In this document: piece by piece, positions 4,725 to 45,003 of the stretch
Numbering within the stretch: the first letter of the stretch is position 1
Layout of the letters: each line of letters begins with the position of its first letter
Assembly (NCBI GenBank): GCA_003222675.1
Contig: QHWT01000079.1
Location: 1 to 64,000 of the forward strand
Source of the DNA: Acidobacteriota bacterium
GTDB lineage: Bacteria > Acidobacteriota > Vicinamibacteria > Vicinamibacterales > 2-12-FULL-66-21
Reading direction: 5' to 3'
Length of the DNA stretch: 64,000 nt
Program-made: the position numbers and the translations under genes
The notes under the pieces: generated by a model
Databases searched by the model: none
The model's input: only the letters and a program-made list of their open reading frames with translations
What the model was told of the DNA's origin: nothing

Positions 4725-5624
4725 CTATTCGGCGGCGCGAAGTTTGTGTTCCAGAATCTGATTCTCTCCGAATCGGTCCAACTGCAGATAGAACTCCGCC
4801 GCCCCGACCAGCGCGGCTGAGGGCACCAACCCGATGATCTCGCTCTCGAGAATCGACACCCCGTGCCGTTCGGCCTCACGCTTCACCATCTCGAATACGC
4901 GGAAGATTGGCGTCTTCTGATAGTTCGTGAGGTTCATCGAAACCTGCGCGATGCGCCGATCCTCCAGCATGAAGCCGGCCGCCTTGACGTAGCGCAGGCC
5001 GCCGCTGCTGTGGCGGACCGCGGCCGCGATCTTCTTCGCGATATCGACGCGATCCGTGTTGAGGTTGATGTTGTACGCGATGAGCGGCATCCGGGCGCCG
5101 ATCACCGAGGCGCCCGCGCTCGAGTGCGGCTCCGCTGGACCGTAATCGGGCATCCACCCGGGCGTTTTCATCTTCGCTGCCAGTCCTTCGTACTCGCCAC
5201 GGCGGATGTCTTCCAGGTTCTTCCTCGCGGGATTCGACGAGGCCTCCTCGTAGAGGAAAATCGGAATGCCGAATCGCGACGCCACCGCTTGCGCGAGCTC
5301 CTTTGCGAGGGTGACGCACGCGTCCATCGTGACCCCTTCAATGGGAACAAAGGGCACAACGTCGACGGCGCCGAGCCGCGGGTGTTCGCCCCTATGCGTC
5401 CGGAGATCGATTGCTGCGACGGCACGTTCGAAGAGCGCAAGCATCGCGGTCTTCAGCGGTGCGGCATCGCCCGCAAGCGTGAAGACCGATCGGTTGTGGG
5501 ACGCATCGGATGAATAGTCGAGCACGCGCACGCCTGGCACCGCGCGCACAGCGGCAGCGATCGCATCGACGACGTCCGAGCGTCGACCCTCGCTCACATT
5601 TGGAATGCACTCGATGATGGCCAT
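4725..5624 (-). CDS. ftcD: Glutamate formimidoyltransferase
   Basis: A 299-aa protein beginning with MAIIECIPNVSEGR, the classic N-terminus of the formiminotransferase domain, which moves the formimino group between formiminoglutamate and tetrahydrofolate at the end of histidine breakdown. The length matches the transferase domain alone; the cyclodeaminase domain of bifunctional FTCD enzymes is absent, and no separate cyclodeaminase or hut genes are seen nearby. The open frame extends upstream to 5864 but that part is low-complexity intergenic DNA, so I chose the ATG at 5624. Confidence 0.93.
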   Translation of the reverse strand: MAIIECIPNVSEGRRSDVVDAIAAAVRAVPGVRVLDYSSDASHNRSVFTLAGDAAPLKTAMLALFERAVAAIDLRTHRGEHPRLGAVDVVPFVPIEGVTMDACVTLAKELAQAVASRFGIPIFLYEEASSNPARKNLEDIRRGEYEGLAAKMKTPGWMPDYGPAEPHSSAGASVIGARMPLIAYNINLNTDRVDIAKKIAAAVRHSSGGLRYVKAAGFMLEDRRIAQVSMNLTNYQKTPIFRVFEMVKREAERHGVSILESEIIGLVPSAALVGAAEFYLQLDRFGENQILEHKLRAAE

Positions 5625-5645
5625 AGGTGGTTTGTCGGCTTGCCC

Positions 5646-5680
5646 GCCGTAGCCGCTTCGCGGCGGAGGCAGGAGGATGG
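5646..5680. repeat. REP-like GC-rich palindromic element
   Basis: GCCGTAGCCGC followed by TTCGCGGCGGAGGCAGGAGG is nearly the same as the element at 358-389 (differing mainly CTTCG/CTGCG in the loop). A related reverse-oriented form is present near 49703-49727. The GCCGC/GCGGC arms can form a hairpin. Confidence 0.55.
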
Positions 5681-5780
5681 TTGTCGGCGGTCGGGGTTGT
5701 CGGGGGACGGAGAAGAGTACGGACAAAGGTTTTTCGGTTTTGCCGTCTTCCGTCCTCCATCCTCCGTCAACTGGATGAAG

Positions 5781-5786
5781 TATAAT
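5781..5786 (+). promoter_or_regulatory. Likely -10 element TATAAT
   Basis: A consensus TATAAT sits 14 bp before the ATG of the TPR membrane protein at 5800. No good -35 hexamer is evident at 17 bp. If used, the mRNA leader would be only a few nucleotides. Confidence 0.45.
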
Positions 5787-5799
5787 CGCGCTACTTGTA

Positions 5800-6618
5800 A
5801 TGCCAGATCCGCTGCGCCATGAAGGGGACCTGCTCGCCTCAGAGACGGGACGCGAAACGCGCATCGAGGAACTCCTCCTCGCCGGCCTCGATCATTATTT
5901 CAACGGTCAGCACGAGCTGGCGATCAGCGTGTGGACGCGTGTCCTGTTCCTGGACCGCAGCCACGCGCGGGCCCGCGCGTACATCGAGCGCGCGCGCGGC
6001 GCGATCGCCGAGCGGCATCGCGAGGGGGAAGAGCTGCTGCAGACCGGTGTCGCGGCCTTCGATCGCGGCGATGCCGTGGATGCGCGGCGGCTGCTGACCT
6101 CGGCGGTGGAGCGGGGCATCTCCTCCGACGAAGCGTTCGCGCTGCTCGATCGCCTCGATCGGCTCGCGCCCGCGGGCGATACACGCGACGAAACGGCGCC
6201 TGCGGGCCGCGAGCGCACGGCAACGAACGCGGGCGCTGCCGCGCGCGAAAGCATCTCCGCCGCGACGCTCTTCCTCGTATTGGCGATCGGCGCATTGAGC
6301 GGGGCGCTGGTGGTCATCGCCTGGAGCGGCCGCGATCTTCCATGGCGGCCATCGTCGGCTCCTGACGCGGTTGGCGCTGGTGGTCCCAGGCTGGAGCCGC
6401 TGCCGGTCCCATCGCCCGCAGAAGTCTCTCTCTCGCGCGCGCGGATCTTCTATTCGAAGGGGCGCGTCCGCGACGCGCTTGCCGCGCTCGACGCGATCCG
6501 TCCCGGCGATCCCCTTCGCTCGCAGGCTGACGATTTACGCATCACGATCCAGCGTCAGCTGCTTGCAACCGCTCGCACGGGATCGCGCGCGGCTACCCCG
6601 GGCTCCTCCTCACGATGA
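5800..6618 (+). CDS. Membrane-anchored TPR-like protein
   Basis: A 272-aa protein of unknown function. The N-terminal half (about residues 20-115) is helical with TPR-like periodicity (LLLAGLDHYFNGQHELAISVWTRVLFLDRSHARARAYIERAR). One transmembrane helix is seen at about 152-172 (LFLVLAIGALSGALVVIAW), followed by a proline-rich linker and another TPR-like unit (ARIFYSKGRVRDALAALDAI). The ATG follows a TATAAT by 14 bp. Its stop overlaps the next gene by 4 bp, so it is probably co-transcribed with the zinc-ribbon RDD protein. Perhaps a scaffold or assembly factor. Confidence 0.75.
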   Translation: MPDPLRHEGDLLASETGRETRIEELLLAGLDHYFNGQHELAISVWTRVLFLDRSHARARAYIERARGAIAERHREGEELLQTGVAAFDRGDAVDARRLLTSAVERGISSDEAFALLDRLDRLAPAGDTRDETAPAGRERTATNAGAAARESISAATLFLVLAIGALSGALVVIAWSGRDLPWRPSSAPDAVGAGGPRLEPLPVPSPAEVSLSRARIFYSKGRVRDALAALDAIRPGDPLRSQADDLRITIQRQLLATARTGSRAATPGSSSR

Positions 6619-7553
6619 GATGTCCGAAGTGCCAGTACATCAGCTTCGATAGCGGCGAACGCTGCCGGAACTGCGGCTACGACTTTTCGCTCAGCGACGA
6701 TGTCGATCCGGTGGAACTGCCGATCCAGGACGGCACGGAGGCCATGGGGCCGCTCTCGGATTTCTCGCTGAACGACGCCGCTACGCCGTCAGAACAGGAA
6801 GCAGAAGAGGGCGACACACCGCTTGCGTCCCTTTCGCCGACCGCCGCCGCGCAGGCCGGCGCGCGCCCCATTACGAGCAGCTTCGATTTGCCATTGTTCA
6901 AGGAACGCGCCGCGAGGGAGGATGCGCCGCTCGTCACGCCAGGCGCTTCGCCGCGTGCGCCGCTGGCCGTGCGGCGAACGAGCGTGGCGACGAAGCCTCG
7001 CCCGAGACGCGACGCCTCTAACCCGCAGCTCGCGCTCGAGACAGCGGAAATCCCGATCGTGGCGGACCGCGCCGTGCCCGTAGCGCCGCCAAGAGCGGCG
7101 GAGATCGCGCCGCCGACAGTCGGGGCCGGGAGTCTTGCGTCGCCAATCGCGCGGCTGGGCGCGGCCACAGTCGACGCGCTGCTTCTTGGAACCATCGATG
7201 CCACGGTGCTGTATTTCACGCTGAAGATCTGCGAGCTGCCGTTCGCCGAGGTGAGGGCGCTGCCTGTGGCCCCTTTCATCGCCTTCCTGTTATTGATGAA
7301 CGGCGCGTACTTCGCGGCGTTTGTTGCGGCTGGAGGCCAGACGATCGGGAAGATGGCCGCCCGCATTCGGGTGGTCCAGGGGGATTCTGACGGCGATGCG
7401 TTCGATCGCGTGTCGCTCGGCCATGCGATCGTGCGCGCGACCGGCTACCTCGTTTCTGCACTGCCTGTGGGGCTCGGCTTTCTGCCAGCGCTCTTCGGTG
7501 ACCGCCGCGCGCTTCACGATCGCCTCGCCGGCACGCGCGTCGTGAAAGCGTGA
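6615..7553 (+). CDS. Zinc-ribbon and RDD domain membrane protein
   Basis: A 312-aa protein opening with a zinc ribbon with cysteines at positions 3, 6, 17 and 20 (CPKC, CRNC). A long low-complexity linker follows, then an RDD domain from about residue 175 (PIARLGAATVDALLLGTIDATVLYF, GGQTIGKMAARIRVV), with several hydrophobic helices. RDD proteins are membrane proteins often linked to transport, but no substrate can be assigned. It overlaps the gene before by ATGA and the pgpA gene after by GTGA. Confidence 0.8.
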   Translation: MRCPKCQYISFDSGERCRNCGYDFSLSDDVDPVELPIQDGTEAMGPLSDFSLNDAATPSEQEAEEGDTPLASLSPTAAAQAGARPITSSFDLPLFKERAAREDAPLVTPGASPRAPLAVRRTSVATKPRPRRDASNPQLALETAEIPIVADRAVPVAPPRAAEIAPPTVGAGSLASPIARLGAATVDALLLGTIDATVLYFTLKICELPFAEVRALPVAPFIAFLLLMNGAYFAAFVAAGGQTIGKMAARIRVVQGDSDGDAFDRVSLGHAIVRATGYLVSALPVGLGFLPALFGDRRALHDRLAGTRVVKA

Positions 7554-36021: not shown

Positions 36022-37947
36022 CTAGACCTGTCCCGTGCCACCGCCGCCCTTTTTGGGTGGCGGAGGAGGCGTGAGCGGAATAGGAATGCCCGGCATGGGA
36101 CCCTGCAGTGGCTGCGGGAACACGGGCGCAGGCGGTACGGCCGCGGGTGCGGCTGCCGGGGTCGTCATCGGAACCGCCGGTGCAGCGCCTGGAGCCGTCA
36201 GCTCGGACGGCACCTCGGGCGCCTCCTCCCGATCGCGTGGGGTCGCAAGCGTCCCCGGAATGGCCGGCACCGTGACCCCGACGTCCCGTCCGAGGCGGAA
36301 CGGGCGCAGATCTGTTTCCGTCAGGTCCAGCACGCGGACGATGTGCGGCGTCAGCGTGAGGATGATGTCGGTCTGCTGCGTTTCCTTGTGATTATTGGCG
36401 AACAGCCGGCCAACGAGAGGGATGTCGCTCAAGCCGGGAATGCCGGCCATGACCGATCGCTCGTCGTCGCGAATCAAGCCCGCCAGCATGTTCGTCTCAC
36501 CGTCCCTCAACCGGATTGTCGTGGCGATCTCGCGGTTGCCGAAGGTCGGCAGGTTCGCGAAGCCCGTACCCGAGATGCTCGAGAGCGAAACCCGCAGCGC
36601 GAGCGTCACCTCGTCGTCGTGATGCGTGCGCGGCGTGATGTCGATGTTCACGCCAATGTTCTCGTACACGAAGGAGGTAATCGGCTGCGTGTTGATGCCT
36701 CCCGCAGCAATAGGGGCGAATGTCGTGACCGGTACCGGCACCCGTTCCCCGAACTTCGCGGAGGCCGCGAGTCCTTCCGCGGTCCGGAGTTGGGGGTTCG
36801 CGAGCGTGCGCGTCGCGGTGTCGTTTTTCAGCAGGCGGTAATAGATGCCAGGAATGCCGGACATGAAGATGTCGGCGGCCGTGAGGTTCCGCAGGTTCTC
36901 GAGCGTGTAATTCTGGCGGTTCACGTCCGCCGAGCCGGAGATGCCGGGCTGTCCTGGTGACGCGATCTGCAGTCCGTACTCGAGCAACCGCGTGCGATCG
37001 ACCTCGAGCAGCTCGACATCGATAACCACTTCGGGGCGCGCCTTGTCGATGGCGTTGATCAGTTTCGCGGCAGCGACGATGCGCTCCGGCGTATCTTTAA
37101 TCGAGATCGCATTCGTTGCCGTAATTGCCGAGACCTGCCGGATGTCGATCACGACCCGCAGGAGATCGATCACTTCCTTGACGTCCGCGTTGCTCAGGTA
37201 AAACGTGCGAACGACCGATTCCTCGTACTCGCGGCGCTTTGCCGGCGTGTCGGGCACGATCGTGATCGTCTGCGGTGCGCTGACGCGGTAGAAGGACCGC
37301 GTGCTGGCGGTGACGGCGGCGAGCGCATCCTCGAGCGTCGCGTTGCGCAGGTCGATGCTGAGCGGCTGATCACGGAACGCCGGATCGAACACGAGACTCA
37401 GGTTCGCGAAGCGCGCGATGGCCATGAACACCGCCCGCGCCGTCGCGCCATTGCCGAAGACGAGCGACGTGGGCAGCTTTGCCGTGGCGGGAAGGTCGAG
37501 GCCAGGCGGCGCCACGTCGCGCGTGCGCTCGATCAGACTCTCGAGCTCGGTGCGTCCGCCGCGGTTCACGCGGATTTTCGTCCGGAGCCGCTGGCGCGCG
37601 TCGCGCAGCGCAGCATCGATTTGCGGATCCGTCGGATTCAGCTCCGAGGCGAGCTGGTACTCGATAACCGCCTCTTCGAAACGATCGAGCCCGGCGAGCC
37701 GGCGCCCCTTGTAAGCGTGGTCCTGCGCGGCGCGTTGTTTCACGCGATCGAGTGCCGTGCGAGCCTCGCGGTTGGCGGGATCGGCGCGTACGACCTTCGT
37801 GTATTCGACGACGGCGCGGTCGTAATCCAGCGCCTGCTCGGCGCGATGCGCGGACCGCAACCCCGCGCTCGACGCACATCCAAATGAGCCGGCGAGCACC
37901 AGCGCCACGGCGCCGGCGCGAAGATCAGCGGCCCGGCGAATCAGCAT
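36022..37947 (-). CDS. TPR-containing secretin lipoprotein (GspD/PilQ-like)
   Basis: A 641-aa outer-membrane secretin. The N-terminus (MLIRRAADLRAGAVALVLAGSFGCASS) is a lipoprotein signal with Cys in the lipobox. TPR-like repeats follow (AEQALDYDRAVVEYTKVVRADPANREA; DRFEEAVIEYQLASELNPTDP), then an STN-like module (PLSIDLRNATLEDALAAVTAST), N-domains (TFYLSNADVKEVIDLL) and the secretin core (GERVPVPVTTF, VGVNIDITPRTH-like, GDIPLVGRLFANNHKE-like). The tail is proline-rich. Several starts are possible; ATG 37947 is preferred. It overlaps the lolA-like gene by 23 bp. Its assembly partner may be a type II or Tad-like export system elsewhere. Confidence 0.85.
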   Translation of the reverse strand: MLIRRAADLRAGAVALVLAGSFGCASSAGLRSAHRAEQALDYDRAVVEYTKVVRADPANREARTALDRVKQRAAQDHAYKGRRLAGLDRFEEAVIEYQLASELNPTDPQIDAALRDARQRLRTKIRVNRGGRTELESLIERTRDVAPPGLDLPATAKLPTSLVFGNGATARAVFMAIARFANLSLVFDPAFRDQPLSIDLRNATLEDALAAVTASTRSFYRVSAPQTITIVPDTPAKRREYEESVVRTFYLSNADVKEVIDLLRVVIDIRQVSAITATNAISIKDTPERIVAAAKLINAIDKARPEVVIDVELLEVDRTRLLEYGLQIASPGQPGISGSADVNRQNYTLENLRNLTAADIFMSGIPGIYYRLLKNDTATRTLANPQLRTAEGLAASAKFGERVPVPVTTFAPIAAGGINTQPITSFVYENIGVNIDITPRTHHDDEVTLALRVSLSSISGTGFANLPTFGNREIATTIRLRDGETNMLAGLIRDDERSVMAGIPGLSDIPLVGRLFANNHKETQQTDIILTLTPHIVRVLDLTETDLRPFRLGRDVGVTVPAIPGTLATPRDREEAPEVPSELTAPGAAPAVPMTTPAAAPAAVPPAPVFPQPLQGPMPGIPIPLTPPPPPKKGGGGTGQV

Positions 37948-38593
37948 CGATGACATCGACACCCCGCGGAATCTTGAACGTGAAGCGCGTGTCCGCGAGT
38001 CCCGTGTTCTCGCGGAAGTTGGTGAACCGGAAGGTTGACGTGCCCCCTTGTTGATCGGCGGCGCTCAACTCGCGAATCTGCAGCGAGCGACGATCCACCA
38101 CGAGAATGAGCCAGTCGTAGTCGCGCTGCCGCAGCTTCGGATCGAGCCGGAGCGCCCACGTATCCTCGCTGGCGCCTGGAGCGTAGGTGACGGTGAAGTC
38201 GCGCGTGACATTGCCCTTGCCCGCGAGGAACAGCACGCCGGTCGTCGCCTGGTCGTCGGCAGGCACGGAGCTCACGATCACCTGTTTGTCCGCCGGCACA
38301 TACGAATACATCTTCCTTCCGTCGGAGACGAACAGCTTCTTCTCCGGCACGGAGTACTCCCATCGCATGCGTCCGGGTTTCTTCACATCGACGGTACCTG
38401 TCTCGCGCAGCGTTTTCTTCAGCACGCCACCCTGGTATGTGTGCGTGAAGTCCGCGGTGAAGTCGCGAACGCGATCGTACTTGTCTTGCAGGGCGCGCGC
38501 GGTTTCGAGAGCCGGCGGCCGCGAGGCAGTCTGCGCGGCGGCGGCGCCTGAGATCAGCACGGCCACAATGGGAATCATTCGGTATGGGACCAT
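37925..38593 (-). CDS. lolA: Outer-membrane lipoprotein carrier LolA-like protein
   Basis: A 222-aa periplasmic protein with a signal peptide (MIPIVAVLISGAAAAQ; the first Met could be at 38593 or 38578). The LolA fold is suggested by DKYDRVRDFTADFTHTYQGGVLKKTLRETGTVDVKKPGRMRWEYSVPEKKLFVSDG and by the C-terminal FRFTNFRENTGLADTRFTFKIPRGVDV. LolA ferries lipoproteins to the outer membrane. The 3' end overlaps the secretin lipoprotein gene, a sensible pairing of a carrier with a lipoprotein cargo. Confidence 0.9.
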   Translation of the reverse strand: MVPYRMIPIVAVLISGAAAAQTASRPPALETARALQDKYDRVRDFTADFTHTYQGGVLKKTLRETGTVDVKKPGRMRWEYSVPEKKLFVSDGRKMYSYVPADKQVIVSSVPADDQATTGVLFLAGKGNVTRDFTVTYAPGASEDTWALRLDPKLRQRDYDWLILVVDRRSLQIRELSAADQQGGTSTFRFTNFRENTGLADTRFTFKIPRGVDVIDADSPGR

Positions 38594-38776: not shown

Positions 38777-40180
38777 CTATGCACGCTTTTGCGCAACGAA
38801 TGCGCGGATCTCTCGCAGCGGGCGGGTGTTCAGCACGTGGCGGGGTTCCACCCATCCGCGACGGGCCGTGCCGATGCCGAGCTGCATCTGCCGCTCGAGC
38901 GACCGCGCGCGGTGGCAGTCGCTGTCGATCGCGACCGTGACGCCGTTTGTCACCGCCTCGCGTGCATGCCCGCCGTCCAGATCGAGGTGTCCCGGGGCGC
39001 CGTCGATTTCGAGAGCGGTGCCGGTCGCTGCCGCCGCCTCGTAGATGGCGGCGTAGTCCATGTCGTACCCGGCGCGCCGCCCGACGAGCTGATTCGCCGG
39101 GTGCGTGATGATCGTGACGAGCGGATGCCTGAGCGCCTGCAGGCAGCGCGCAGTAAGCCGCTTGCCATCGTGACCGCAGCGCTCGTGCAGCGACGCGAGC
39201 ACGACGTCGAGCGACGCGAGGATCTCGTCGGGGCAATCGAGGCTGCCGTCGGGAAGGATGTCTGCTTCGATGCCGTGCAGGATGGCGAGCCGCGGATACT
39301 CATCGCGCAGGCGGGCGATTTCTTCACGTTGACGCTCCAGGAGATCGAGCGTCAGCGTCCGCGACGCGGCGGCGTGTTCCGAGTGATCGCTGATCGCCAT
39401 GTACTCGTAACCGAGCGCGGCGCACGAATCGACCATCTCGCGCACTGAGTTCTGGCCGTCGCTGAATGTCGTGTGCATGTGCAGGTCGCCGCGAATATCC
39501 GCGCGTGTCACGAATGTCGGGACGCGTCCGCGCACTGCTGCCTCGATGGCATCGGGAGCGCTGCGCACTTCGGGCGGAAGATAAGTGAGACCTGCCTGCG
39601 AGTAGAGCTCGTCTTCCGAGGCGCTCATGCGCGGCCCGCGCCGCCGATGAATCTCCACGACGTGCGCCGCGGGGCCTGTCGTCGTGAAGAGCACAGTGCC
39701 GTATTCGTCCGGTGTCGCGACGCGCACGTCGATCTCGTGCCCCTGGAACACCACGATCACGCGTCGGCCTGTTCGATGCAGCACGCCCGTAACGCCGGGA
39801 AGGCTCGCGATCGACGCAACAGCGCCCGGGGGATGTCGGCTGCGTCCGACGAGGAGCAGTTCCCGGGGCAGCTGTTCGAACCGGCGAACCTCGCCCGATA
39901 CATCGACGTCGATCAGCTCGGGGCATCCGGCCGTGAGAGCTGCGGAAAACGCATCGGCGATATCCGACGCGCGGCCGAGCGTGAGCGGTGCGCGGTCCGC
40001 GGCGAGCATCGAAACGGCGGCGCGCAACCCCTGTGCGCCGACGGACGCGCGTCGCTCGCCAACGGCAAGTTCGAAGTCCGTCAGCGTGAGGATGCCGTCG
40101 CGGACGAGTGTCTGTTCGAGTGAAAGGGAAAGCGCGCCGAGCTCGCGCAGCCCGCGCAGAAGAAACGGGAGCGGCGTCAC
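38777..40180 (-). CDS. PHP-domain protein with a degenerate PolX-type polymerase region
   Basis: A 467-aa protein with a C-terminal PHP phosphoesterase domain whose metal ligands are all visible: DLHMHTTFSDGQ, AISDHSEHAA, HGIEADILPDGSLD, THPANQ and DSDCHRA. The N-terminal half resembles PolX in layout but lacks the helix-hairpin-helix motifs seen in the true PolX of this window, and where PolX has GSLRRGCDTCGDLDIL this has SGEVRRFEQLPRELLLV, so the catalytic DxD is lost. The GTG at 40180 overlaps the stop of the rhodanese-like gene (GTGA). Probably a nuclease or phosphatase derived from PolX. Confidence 0.82.
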   Translation of the reverse strand: MTPLPFLLRGLRELGALSLSLEQTLVRDGILTLTDFELAVGERRASVGAQGLRAAVSMLAADRAPLTLGRASDIADAFSAALTAGCPELIDVDVSGEVRRFEQLPRELLLVGRSRHPPGAVASIASLPGVTGVLHRTGRRVIVVFQGHEIDVRVATPDEYGTVLFTTTGPAAHVVEIHRRRGPRMSASEDELYSQAGLTYLPPEVRSAPDAIEAAVRGRVPTFVTRADIRGDLHMHTTFSDGQNSVREMVDSCAALGYEYMAISDHSEHAAASRTLTLDLLERQREEIARLRDEYPRLAILHGIEADILPDGSLDCPDEILASLDVVLASLHERCGHDGKRLTARCLQALRHPLVTIITHPANQLVGRRAGYDMDYAAIYEAAAATGTALEIDGAPGHLDLDGGHAREAVTNGVTVAIDSDCHRARSLERQMQLGIGTARRGWVEPRHVLNTRPLREIRAFVAQKRA

Positions 40181-40533
40181 CCCTTCAACGAGCCGCCAAT
40201 CGCGGCAGGTTGCGGCGCCGGCTTGGAATCGGTCGGATACTTCGCGCCGATCCATTCGGCGATCCCGCCGGCGAGGACGGCGACTCGGTGGCCGGTCTTC
40301 TGGAGCTCGCGCGCTACATTCGAGCTCACCAGTTCTTCCGGATCGGAATCGTAGAGCAGGATATCGCGGTCGAGCGGCAGGCGGGAGGAATCGAGCGCGT
40401 TCGGCGCCATGCGGATGGCGCCAGGCAGCATCACAGTGCTGTGCTCGAAAGGATACTTGAGGCGGACGTCAACGATCAGAGGGGCGGACGGGCCGGCGGC
40501 GTCGAGCCGTCGTCGCAACTCGTCCTTTGACAT
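40177..40533 (-). CDS. Rhodanese-like domain protein lacking the catalytic Cys
   Basis: A 118-aa single rhodanese fold: APLIVDVRLKYPFEHSTVMLPGAIRMAP and the C-terminal HRVAVLAGGIAEWIGAKYPTD. At the active-site loop, where active sulfurtransferases have Cys, the sequence is LLYDSDPEELVSS, with no Cys. It is probably a binding or structural domain. It is translationally coupled to the PHP gene that follows. ATG 40533 is preferred to upstream GTGs. Confidence 0.82.
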   Translation of the reverse strand: MSKDELRRRLDAAGPSAPLIVDVRLKYPFEHSTVMLPGAIRMAPNALDSSRLPLDRDILLYDSDPEELVSSNVARELQKTGHRVAVLAGGIAEWIGAKYPTDSKPAPQPAAIGGSLKG

Positions 40534-40590
40534 ACGCGGCACCACCACGAGGCTATTGTCCTCAGGCGGCGCGCGGTGTCAACCGACGGC

Positions 40591-41120: not shown

Positions 41121-44100
41121 TTACTGCTTGGTGAAGTCGACCGAAAGCGCGGCGGGTGGACCGCCCGTGATCGTCGTCACCAGCTTGCGTTCCCCGAACT
41201 GTGGATTGCGGAAGACGATCTCGCGGACCCCCAGCGCGATGGAGACGTTGGCGATAGGCGTTTCGCCGACGCGGACGCCATCGATCCAGACCTCGGCCCA
41301 CGGCTGGGCATTGATATTCGCGGAACCCCGAGGCTCCAGGCTGACCTTGTAAACCTCGCCGGGCTCGATCTCGACCGTCTGTGTTCCCTGGTAGTTCAGC
41401 GCGTTGTTGGTGAATCGCAGCTGGTGCCGGCCCGGCGGCAGCATGATCTGATTCTCGCTCGTCCCGAGGAGCCGGCCGCCTTCGGCGACCTCAACGACGA
41501 TCGGCGCCGAAATCGCTGCGAAGCCGGAGAAGATCGGGATATCGAGCGAGAGGCTGCGACCGGCCTCGACGCGTACCGTCTTCTTCACGCTGCCGCTTTC
41601 GGTGATGAGCGTCACGGTATGCCGTCCTGGCGTGACGGTCTGCAGCGTCACCGGGGATTCTCCGACAGCCTTGCCGTCAAGCAGCACGCGCGCGCCGGGA
41701 GGCTGCGTGGCAACGACGATTTGACCGGCGGTGCTCGACGGGGCCGGTGTGGAGATCGCCGCGGACGCTGTTGACGGCGTCGGCTTGGACCTGGTCGGCT
41801 CGACTTTGCCCGATGGCAGCAACGAGTGCGCCGCGGCAACGCCGATGAGGAGCACGACACCGGCGGCGCCGGCGATCTTCCAGGGGATCCCGCCACGGCT
41901 GGTGTCGGTCGGGTTGGCGCTGAAATCCGGCGTGAACGCGACGTCGCGATCGCGTCGCGGCGCGAAGCTCGCGGGATTCGCGTGGCTCGTCGTGTCGTGC
42001 TTCAGGCGGATCGGCGTTGGCTGCGCCAGTCCGATGGGCGCGCTCTGCGGCTGCGCGACGGGCTTCGGAGGCGCGAATCCGATCTGCGTCGGCATTGTGA
42101 CGGACGGCGGTATTACTGGCGGCACGACGACAGGCGGAGGCATCGCGGCCGCAATCGGCGGTTGCGTGGCGGGCGGCATGTAGACGGGGTACGTCTGTGG
42201 CGCTGCGACGTGCACAGGCGCCTGCGGGAGCACTGGCACCGGCGGCTCGAATGCGGCCGCGCGATCCGGTGGAACAAGCCAGGAGCTCTTCGATCCGGCA
42301 CCCGCGGGTGTGTGCGCCGGTGTCGGAGTCGTGCCGCTCGACCCGGGTGCCGCCGATCGGAGGCGGTCCTTCTTCGATCGGGCGGACTTGTCGCGCTTGC
42401 GCCGCTTGTTGGCCTGACCCGCGGACTCGGCGCCTTCTTCCGCGTCCGCCTGAGCGGCGAGCTCCTGCTCGCGCCGCTCTGCGGCCGCGCGTTCCTTCTC
42501 GCGGCGTTCTGCTTCGGCGCGCTCGCGTTCGAGCCGCTCTCTTTCGAGCCGCTCTTTTTCGCGGCGCTCCTTGTCGCGGCGATCTGTTTCGAGCCGCTCT
42601 TTCTCTTTGCGCTCGGCCTCCAGCTTTGCCTGCCGCTCGCGCTCGCGCCGATCCGCTTCGAGCCGTTCTTTCTCTTTGCGCTCGGCTTCGAGGCGTGCCT
42701 GGCGCTCGCGCTCCTGCCGTTCCTTTTCGACGCGCTCCTTCTCGCGGCGGTCGGCTTCGAGGCGCTCTTTTTCCTTGCGCTGCGCTTCGAGCTTCGCCTG
42801 CCGCTCGCGCTCCAGGCGTTCGGCTTCAAGTCGCTCCTTCTCGCGGCGTTCGCGTTCCCGGCGTTCCGCTTCGCGCCGCTCCGCTTCCTGGCGTTCCTTT
42901 TCCCGCCGCTCACCTTCGAGGCGGGCGCGCTCACGCTGTTCCGCTTCGAGCCGCTCGCGCTCGATGCGCTCGCGTTCGAGGCGCTCCTTGTCGCGACGTT
43001 CCGCTTCGAGCCGCGCGCGCTCGCGCATCTCCGCTTCGAGCCGCCCGCGCTCGATGCGCTCGCGTTCGAGCCGCTCCTTTTCCAGCCGTTCCGCTTCCAA
43101 CCGCTCGCGTTCGCGCTGCTCGGCCTCGAGTCGCTCGCGTTCGACGCGTTCGCGTTCGATCCGCTCCTTTTCGAGCCGTTCCGCCTCTAACCGTGCGCGT
43201 TCGCGGCGCTCGGCCTCGACTCGTTCCCGTTCGCGCTTCTCGGCCTCCAGCCGCTCGCGTTCGCGCCGCTCGGCTTCGAGCTTTTCCTTTTCACGGAGCT
43301 CCTTCTCTTTGCGCTCCGCCTCCAGCTTCGCCTGCCGCTCGCGCTCCCGGCGTTCCGCCTCGAGCCGTTCGCGTTCGCGTCGCTCCGCTTCGTGCTTCTC
43401 CTTCTCGTGGCGCTCGGCTTCGAGCCGCGCACGCTCGCGCGCCTCCGCGTCTCTGCGCTCGCGCTCGCGGCGTTCCGTCTCGTGTCTCGCGCGTTCCTCG
43501 CGCTCCCCATCGACACGTGCGTGTTCGTGGCGGTCGCTTGCGTGCTGTGCGGCCAGCACTTCTTCGGCGGCCGTGCGCTCGGCTTCCGCCGACTCGACCT
43601 GTTGCAGGAATTCGAGAAGCGCCGCGCGGCACGCGTCGATTCCTATTTCGCGTCGCACCAGCTGACGTAGGTCCAGCACTGCATCGTCGGCCGAGGGAAA
43701 CGCCTTGCGTCCGGCGAGCGGGAGCACGCGATCGAAGAATTTCTCGAAGCCGTTCGCGAAGACGGTCGTGCCCCGGATTTGCGCGACTTCGAGGATTTCG
43801 GCGCGCAGCGCCTGAATCCCGTTCGGATAGTCGGCTGGGCCCAGGGGACGGCCGACAATCAACGCGGCCGCCGTGATGCCTGCCTGCGTCAGATCAGCCG
43901 CGACATCGAACCGCGCAGGTCCCGCGGAGGGAGCGACTGCGACGCCGAACTCGTTCCATAGCCGCTGCCGCGTGAACGCCAGCCGCTCCAGGACCGCGCC
44001 GTAGATTGGATCGAGCAGGACGATCTGTCCGGCAGGAGTGAACACGACACGCGCCGGCGATACCGAGCCGTGCGCGAACCTGGCCATTCCATGGAGATTG

Positions 44101-44471
44101 CCGAGCGCGGGCAGTATTTCGAGCAGGAACCCGAGTGCCGCGTCCAGGCCGGGGACGATGCCGGCATCGCGAGCGGCGTCGAGTGCGTCGGAGAGTCGCC
44201 GGCCGGGAACGAATTCGGAGACGACGGTCAGCCGGCCTTCCTCGTCCTGCTCGAGATCGCGGGGATGCGCGAAGCGTTCGTCATCGAGCTTCGCCACGGT
44301 GTCGATACGAGCGATCAGGGCCCTCTCGAACGCGGCGAGCTCCGGCCGCAGGACGAGACACTCCAACATCTCGCCCGTCTCGCAATCGAACGCGAGCACA
44401 CGCCGCCCAAGACCGTCCTCGAAACCGGAGGACGAGAGCGACGAAGCGGAGTTGGAGGTAGGCCCGGACAT
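41121..44471 (-). CDS. Giant kinase-like, E/R/K-helix, PEGA-domain membrane protein
   Basis: A 1116-aa protein. Residues about 1-285 look like a degenerate protein kinase fold (VVSEFVPGRRLSDALD; LGNLHGMARFAHGSVSPARVVFTPAGQIVLLDPIYG), with HGSVSP in place of the HRD loop, so probably inactive. Residues about 290-680 are almost pure E, R, K, A, L in 7-residue patterns such as ERRERERLEAERRERERQAKLEAE, predicted as a very long single alpha-helix. A basic patch (ANKRRKRDKSARSKKDRLR), a Pro-rich linker, a transmembrane helix at about 865-885 (WKIAGAAGVVLLIGVAAAHSLL) and PEGA-type beta domains (IVVATQPPGARVLLDGKAVGESPVTLQ) follow, with a second PEGA-like unit near the C-terminus. ATG 44471 is preferred; the frame stays open to 44849. 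Confidence 0.82.
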   Translation of the reverse strand: MSGPTSNSASSLSSSGFEDGLGRRVLAFDCETGEMLECLVLRPELAAFERALIARIDTVAKLDDERFAHPRDLEQDEEGRLTVVSEFVPGRRLSDALDAARDAGIVPGLDAALGFLLEILPALGNLHGMARFAHGSVSPARVVFTPAGQIVLLDPIYGAVLERLAFTRQRLWNEFGVAVAPSAGPARFDVAADLTQAGITAAALIVGRPLGPADYPNGIQALRAEILEVAQIRGTTVFANGFEKFFDRVLPLAGRKAFPSADDAVLDLRQLVRREIGIDACRAALLEFLQQVESAEAERTAAEEVLAAQHASDRHEHARVDGEREERARHETERRERERRDAEARERARLEAERHEKEKHEAERRERERLEAERRERERQAKLEAERKEKELREKEKLEAERRERERLEAEKRERERVEAERRERARLEAERLEKERIERERVERERLEAEQRERERLEAERLEKERLERERIERGRLEAEMRERARLEAERRDKERLERERIERERLEAEQRERARLEGERREKERQEAERREAERRERERREKERLEAERLERERQAKLEAQRKEKERLEADRREKERVEKERQERERQARLEAERKEKERLEADRRERERQAKLEAERKEKERLETDRRDKERREKERLERERLERERAEAERREKERAAAERREQELAAQADAEEGAESAGQANKRRKRDKSARSKKDRLRSAAPGSSGTTPTPAHTPAGAGSKSSWLVPPDRAAAFEPPVPVLPQAPVHVAAPQTYPVYMPPATQPPIAAAMPPPVVVPPVIPPSVTMPTQIGFAPPKPVAQPQSAPIGLAQPTPIRLKHDTTSHANPASFAPRRDRDVAFTPDFSANPTDTSRGGIPWKIAGAAGVVLLIGVAAAHSLLPSGKVEPTRSKPTPSTASAAISTPAPSSTAGQIVVATQPPGARVLLDGKAVGESPVTLQTVTPGRHTVTLITESGSVKKTVRVEAGRSLSLDIPIFSGFAAISAPIVVEVAEGGRLLGTSENQIMLPPGRHQLRFTNNALNYQGTQTVEIEPGEVYKVSLEPRGSANINAQPWAEVWIDGVRVGETPIANVSIALGVREIVFRNPQFGERKLVTTITGGPPAALSVDFTKQ

Positions 44472-44918: not shown

Positions 44919-45003
44919 ATTGTCCGAGGTCCGAGGTCCGAGGTCCGAGGTTCGAGGTCCGAGGTTTGAGGTCCGAGGTTCGAGGTCCGAAATCCGAGAT
45001 CCC
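44919..45003. repeat. GAGGTCC word array
   Basis: The word CCGAGGT or TCGAGGT repeats about nine times with single changes (CCGAGGTCCGAGGTTCGAGG and so on). Only one orientation is seen here; the reverse complement CCTCGGACCTCGGA lies in the gpsA-ftsY spacer. Confidence 0.85.

Follow-up and report, generated by a model that had tools for sequence, protein, structure and literature searches.

A predicted pseudokinase–PEGA family of one Acidobacteriota order with a long and probably exchangeable linker

The window analysed here, i.e., the whole stretch of 64,000 nucleotides from an Acidobacteriota bacterium (Vicinamibacterales, contig QHWT01000079.1), carries on its minus strand, as with the domains and neighbouring genes listed below, a gene at 41121-44471 with an ATG at 44471 and a product of 1116 aa (ORF call). 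Together with its relatives, the call gives the order pseudokinase, charged helix, Pro-rich linker, transmembrane segment (TM) and PEGA. The ATG start is backed by relatives that open with the same MS..-[SA]G[FY] text, and a longer GTG frame reaching 44849 was rejected as the gene because the relatives begin at the equivalent methionine. Upstream of the gene, the intergenic DNA holds a 7-bp tandem repeat (GTCCGAG, 11 copies, 44922-44998). A comparison of orthologue loci identified as conserved neighbours a rhodanese-like gene (40177-40548), a PHP-domain gene (38777-40255), a LolA-like lipoprotein carrier gene (37925-38593) and a TPR plus secretin gene (36022-37962). The last of these, situated beside LolA, has its TPR at the N-terminus and does not reach the threshold of any named secretin model (GspD, PilQ, and others). 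The window gene and the orthologues L114, L035, L036, L037, L038, and L086 all lie at a locus with LolA and secretin genes, most of the seven have the PHP gene beside them and some also rhodanese and MurB genes, within the limits of the contigs.

The N-terminal domain (residues 1-298, 43578-44471) gave nothing above cut-off when searched alone in Pfam or NCBIfam, and for this reason a family profile was used, which matched solved kinases (PDB) at 3.1e-15. Structure prediction, which the initial annotation had proposed as a check, returned a two-lobed protein kinase fold (AlphaFold2, 42-sequence alignment, pLDDT 93.3, pTM 0.90), and the model was matched to PknA by Foldseek (5.6e-10) and to MST3, PknA, PknI, and others by VIA-align (Z 20 to 21.6 over 234-266 residues). 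The residues of an active Ser/Thr protein kinase (beta3 Lys, HRD Asp, DFG Asp-Gly) were not found: in 42/42 aligned homologues the beta3 Lys is replaced by Leu/Phe, the HRD Asp by A/L/C/T/S, and DFG is absent, with HGxxxPER-type motifs in place of HRDxxxxN, CLVL/L-x-L in place of VAIK and DPI/EHV in place of DFG. The kinase-like domain had originally been described as being without HRD, and this description can now be extended to the beta3 Lys and DFG. As all 42 aligned homologues are devoid of all three, we regard the family as a pseudokinase family, in the general sense of kinase homology, degraded motifs, and a conserved family. Nine positions are invariant across the alignment (D19, G22, R24, R92, G135, R141, W172, G207, and A264), and since G135, R141, W172, R92, and R24 persist despite the lost catalytic residues, the domain appears to be under selection. 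Judging by its residues, it is predicted to be dead as a kinase, yet it is conserved.

Degenerate kinase folds in membrane proteins are not new. MviN of M. tuberculosis (ActPs3) and EssB/YukC likewise are membrane proteins with a kinase fold lacking catalytic residues and are thought to recruit partners (PMC12599244, PMC9600267), whereas the family described here has different replacement motifs, predicted outer PEGA domains, a long variable linker, and is restricted to one Acidobacteriota order. In pseudokinases of the GLW family, GLW replaces HRD and the beta3 Lys position reads LLLL/W, while the ActPs3 (MviN) family has VALT at VAIK and Lsidhpsr at HRDxxxxN (PMC12599244). Our family belongs to neither, as it has HG-[A/L/S/C/T] at HRD and the beta3 L/F in a different context from GLW, and differs from ActPs3 in a comparison by stated motifs rather than by full residue pattern. 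The other five families of the same 2025 review were compared by their text descriptions, not by residue patterns; CP1 and DLHK have no TM, and DYD and DLHK keep HRD and/or DFG (PMC12599244). The text of this review makes no mention of PEGA or Acidobacteria, and a literature search pairing Acidobacteria with bacterial pseudokinase families found no paper.

The kinase-like domain is followed by a charged segment of 382 residues (302-683, 42423-43568) built of R-x-E-[A/R]-E units and composed almost exclusively of E, R, A, L, and K (36% E+D, 35% R+K, net charge -3, 4 Gly, and no Pro). In comparison to 1000 shuffles of the same residues, R/K is followed by E at i+4 in 93 cases against 48 (z 10.2), the reverse order E to R/K is enriched at i+4 (z 4.8), and same-charge pairs are depleted at i+4 (26 against 95, z -9.5) and enriched at i+5 (z 13.7). 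Arg/Lys flanked by Glu/Asp at both -3 and +4 occurs 55 times against 17 in shuffles (z 11.5); E-R-E networks have been described for single helices, the E(-3)/E(+4) flanking of Arg being one type (PMC5347031). Hydrophobic residues (Leu) are spaced by 5 or 10, not 7, the best local 28-residue heptad a/d occupancy is 0.375 (mean best 0.20), hydrophobic power is 0.01 at a period of 3.5 and 0.04 at 3.667, and neither a heptad nor a hendecad seam of the coiled-coil kind was found. The segment thus has the sequence features of a single alpha-helix (E/R/K-rich, opposite charges at i+3/i+4, no heptad seam), in agreement with the charge pairing pointed out in the initial annotation. Myosin-6/-10 and designed ER/K helices share this composition, the i+3/i+4 opposite-charge pairs, and the missing hydrophobic seam (PMC5347031, PMC4183817), but the present helix is several times longer, has a period of 5 instead of 7 and is Arg-rich (R:K about 4:1). 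In vitro, single helices designed with a high Arg content aggregated, whereas myosin-6 remained a monomer on substitution with Arg (PMC5347031); owing to its own Arg-rich composition the present helix could self-associate. Pro is absent throughout residues 276-690 and the last helix of the kinase domain (residues 278-297 in the AlphaFold2 model) leads into the charged segment, which suggests that the latter may be joined to the kinase C-lobe without a hinge.

Given that three other genomes contain a segment of this kind, we do not consider it an assembly artefact. The DNA that encodes it contains repeats of 30-99 bp with 65-83% matches, and its GC3 is 0.75 (0.78-0.82 in the rest of the gene). 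Identical pentapeptides are almost all encoded by different DNA (e.g., the 11 copies of RLEAE by 10 DNA versions). At the lags of the repeat (5, 10, 15, and 30) pN/pS is 0.57-0.64, compared with 0.9-1.07 for the majority of other short lags. The synonymous divergence and the low pN/pS at the repeat lags argue that the charge pattern has been kept by selection, beyond fresh DNA repetition; duplication is the probable source of the helix repeat, which since then has been maintained at the protein level.

Between the helix and the membrane anchor lie residues 689-865, basic at first and then Pro-rich. They contain a basic motif, KRRKRDKSARSKKDRLRS (residues 689-706, 42354-42407), immediately after the helix and conserved in L114, L036, and L086 (with a similar, shifted stretch in L037), a second short motif, WLVPPDRAAAFEPP (residues 731-744, 42240-42281), conserved in L114, L035, L036, and L086, and, in the Pro-rich stretch ahead of the TM, a PIRLK motif (residues 820-824, 42000-42014) conserved in most orthologues. 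A hydropathy scan located the single TM at residues 866-884 (41820-41876). The C-terminal part (residues 909-1116) matches PEGA (Pfam PF08308, 6.5e-19, 68 bits against a cut-off of 20.8) and is modelled by AlphaFold2 as three consecutive beta domains (pLDDT 93.7): PEGA domain 1 (residues 916-979, 41535-41726), which carries the PF08308 match and strands in the model, PEGA-like domain 2 (residues 983-1044, 41340-41525) with repeated beta-strand units, and PEGA-like domain 3 (residues 1048-1112, 41136-41330), bearing the conserved text NINAxPWAEVWIDGxxxGETPxAN. A Foldseek search with this model gave only multi-domain beta-sandwich matches, the best being the TIE protein of Bacillus anthracis (3.8e-8); with a TM-score of 0.32 we read it as a generic beta-domain resemblance and rejected kinship. 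The giant protein with pseudokinase, E/R/K segment, TM, and PEGA envisaged at the outset is therefore confirmed; of the two observations that the initial annotation had named as speaking against it, clear hydrophobic heptads and an unsupported kinase fold, neither was made. The notion that the helix is tied to the membrane anchor needs amending, since about 180 intervening residues, largely Pro-rich, mean that the charged helix itself stops short of the membrane.

The linker is where the orthologues diverge. Complete E/R/K helices are present in three genera (382 residues in the window, 402 in L035, and 296 in L036), and L114, of the same genus as the window and with a C-terminus 80% identical, also has the helix, although its contig ends inside the repeat and the missing 5' end was not found in its genome; helix length thus varies between genera. 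In L037, VEAVQAVE / VEAVQAVETVE repeats take the place of the helix, the linker of L038 is Pro-rich, as is that of L086 in the part covered, and L039, a more distant member, has a Glu/Pro-rich one. Linkers of more distant members range from about 40 to 1400 residues with domain order unchanged, e.g., ca. 1375 residues of Ala/Val/Asp-rich repeats in a 2002-aa frame of L059 (G014) and 40-250 in others. Across the extracted family both protein ends are kept while the middle changes, and the locus is common to orthologues of every linker type. The seven same-locus orthologues form one clade (SH-aLRT 99) in which the window, L114, and L035 group at 97, and as L036 falls outside this group with weak support, the helix may have had one or two origins. 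As same-locus orthologues keep both ends but replace the helix, the latter probably represents one spacer that others can replace rather than a fixed ruler. A ruler would be expected to retain its length and stiffness, and the ruler-like link between cytoplasm and envelope first suspected for this protein is not supported by helices of 402, 382, or 296 residues, or none at all where Pro-rich or VEAVQAVE linkers replace them. The motifs KRxKSARSKKDRLRS, WLVPPxRAAAFEPP, and PIRLK between helix and TM are conserved across several linker types, making these short motifs the stronger candidates for binding sites. The closest parallel to such an exchange is, by analogy, domain II of TolA/TonB, likewise a spacer of envelope proteins, which takes an alpha-helical form in some taxa and a Pro-rich one in the majority, with the ends kept (PMC12204202); that spacer differs in being periplasmic, proton-motor-driven, unrelated in sequence, and without a kinase domain, the one described here being presumably cytoplasmic.

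The N-domain was detected in 82/162 genomes of the order (Vicinamibacteria; E <= 1e-20) and in 43/60 relatives, a count that includes weak matches to ordinary kinases. Among 297 genomes sampled across the Acidobacteriota, 16 had a match, every one of them from this order, and none was found outside it. C-terminal relatives were sought in the genome collection with a narrow C-terminal alignment, and named records with a C-terminal match are Acidobacteriota, several of them labelled gp6 or Vicinamibacteria/Vicinamibacterales. One contig titled Acidimicrobiia (VFZL01000017.1; L126 / L074, G057:C17) has two tandem family members and is probably misnamed, as the genome set places it in the order of the window. 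The genome of the window itself carries a paralogue (G000:C86, 36% identity) and also a second, different protein with a kinase-like domain, TM, and two PEGA domains (L165, G000:C115:9000-19000, 4988-7162, minus strand), in which HGALHPRD stands for HRD and GFG for DFG while the beta3 Lys (VGVK) seems kept. Intact receptor Ser/Thr kinases in records of Myxococcota, KSB1, Ignavibacteria, and Gemmatimonadota also combine kinase, TM, and PEGA-like domains in one ORF, but differ by intact HRD/DFG and a pre-TM linker that is mostly short (under about 80 residues). Some of the PEGA matches outside the order are also recognised by the kinase profile, and among these 13 frames retain HRD and DFG; in every one of the 13 the kinase domain is followed by a hydrophobic segment, in most cases no more than 80 residues away. 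Because the PEGA match sits in intact kinases there, we infer from these motif counts, rather than from a rooted kinase tree, that in this order a receptor kinase would have given up catalysis and acquired a long linker.

We consider a bitopic, envelope-anchored pseudokinase scaffold on a long exchangeable linker to be the best explanation of these observations, and a reasonably probable one. The PEGA domains would lie outside the inner membrane and bind an envelope ligand, and the dead kinase domain would act in the cytoplasm as a protein-binding scaffold, which the long linker would hold off the membrane, giving it reach and displaying the short putative binding motifs. In the species of the window, as in three relatives, an Arg/Glu-rich single alpha-helix would make up most of the linker and would probably continue the terminal helix of the kinase C-lobe, giving about 400 residues, or about 60 nm should all of it be helical. 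Since the linker of the same orthologous gene is Pro-rich or repeat-rich elsewhere, what selection appears to preserve is both ends and a degree of spacing rather than a set length or stiffness. Against this explanation count the possible self-association of the Arg-rich helix and that the linker may have functions masked by its exchange, given the conservation of the short motifs that flank it. That the whole constitutes an undescribed order-wide family, in which a syntenic gene swaps a ca. 60 nm, hinge-less, C-lobe-fused single alpha-helix for flexible linkers, we propose only tentatively, at somewhat less than even chances.

Orthologues that do without the helix also bear on readings in which the helix has a property of its own, and disfavour any helix-specific ruler or spring. 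A stiff strut of defined length that sets the pseudokinase tens of nm from the envelope, e.g., at the nucleoid, would fit the single-helix statistics, the probable lack of a hinge at the kinase end (no Pro in 276-690, with the model's terminal helix entering the segment) and the similar lengths of two of the three complete helices (382 and 402); however, the third has 296 residues, same-locus orthologues have none, and the largely Pro-rich stretch before the membrane would blur any distance, which makes this reading unlikely. A low and almost constant force is enough to unfold single alpha-helices (PMC4183817), and the protein could be anchored at both of its ends; the helix might then be a spring of constant force, with PEGA bound to the wall on one side and the pseudokinase holding a cytoplasmic anchor on the other. 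Orthologues with Pro-rich linkers have no such spring, and the present evidence lends support to neither a wall nor a cytoplasmic anchor; we judge a tension sensor to be very improbable.

Two further readings concern the segment itself. It is long, Leu-containing, and helix-favouring, and kinase domains of this class often dimerise, as would be expected if a coiled coil paired two pseudokinases, but the Leu spacing and the heptad values given above speak against it, leaving dimerisation by this route with very little credence. Slippage of a GC-rich repeat could also have lengthened the linker without any selected property, as the DNA repeats, the few genomes with a helix, and the free change of linker kind across the family might suggest. 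Such neutral expansion is at odds with an amino-acid pattern that persists despite heavy synonymous divergence and is kept in three genera plus the same-genus relative, and it appears improbable, a little more so than the strut. The exchangeable linker of a pseudokinase scaffold thus remains the reading that we favour.

A kinase fold, a linker of the single-helix type, and PEGA are each already known. What is added here is a pseudokinase family found in roughly every second genome sampled from a large order of soil bacteria, with motifs that match none of those given for fully degenerate families in the 2025 review (PMC12599244). It also cautions that a long single helix from one genome should not be read as a ruler. 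The same gene in the same place with different linkers offers a comparative series on the purpose of long charged helices, and, if true, the linker swap would be a natural experiment in which a stiff and a flexible tether can be compared for a membrane-anchored signalling scaffold.
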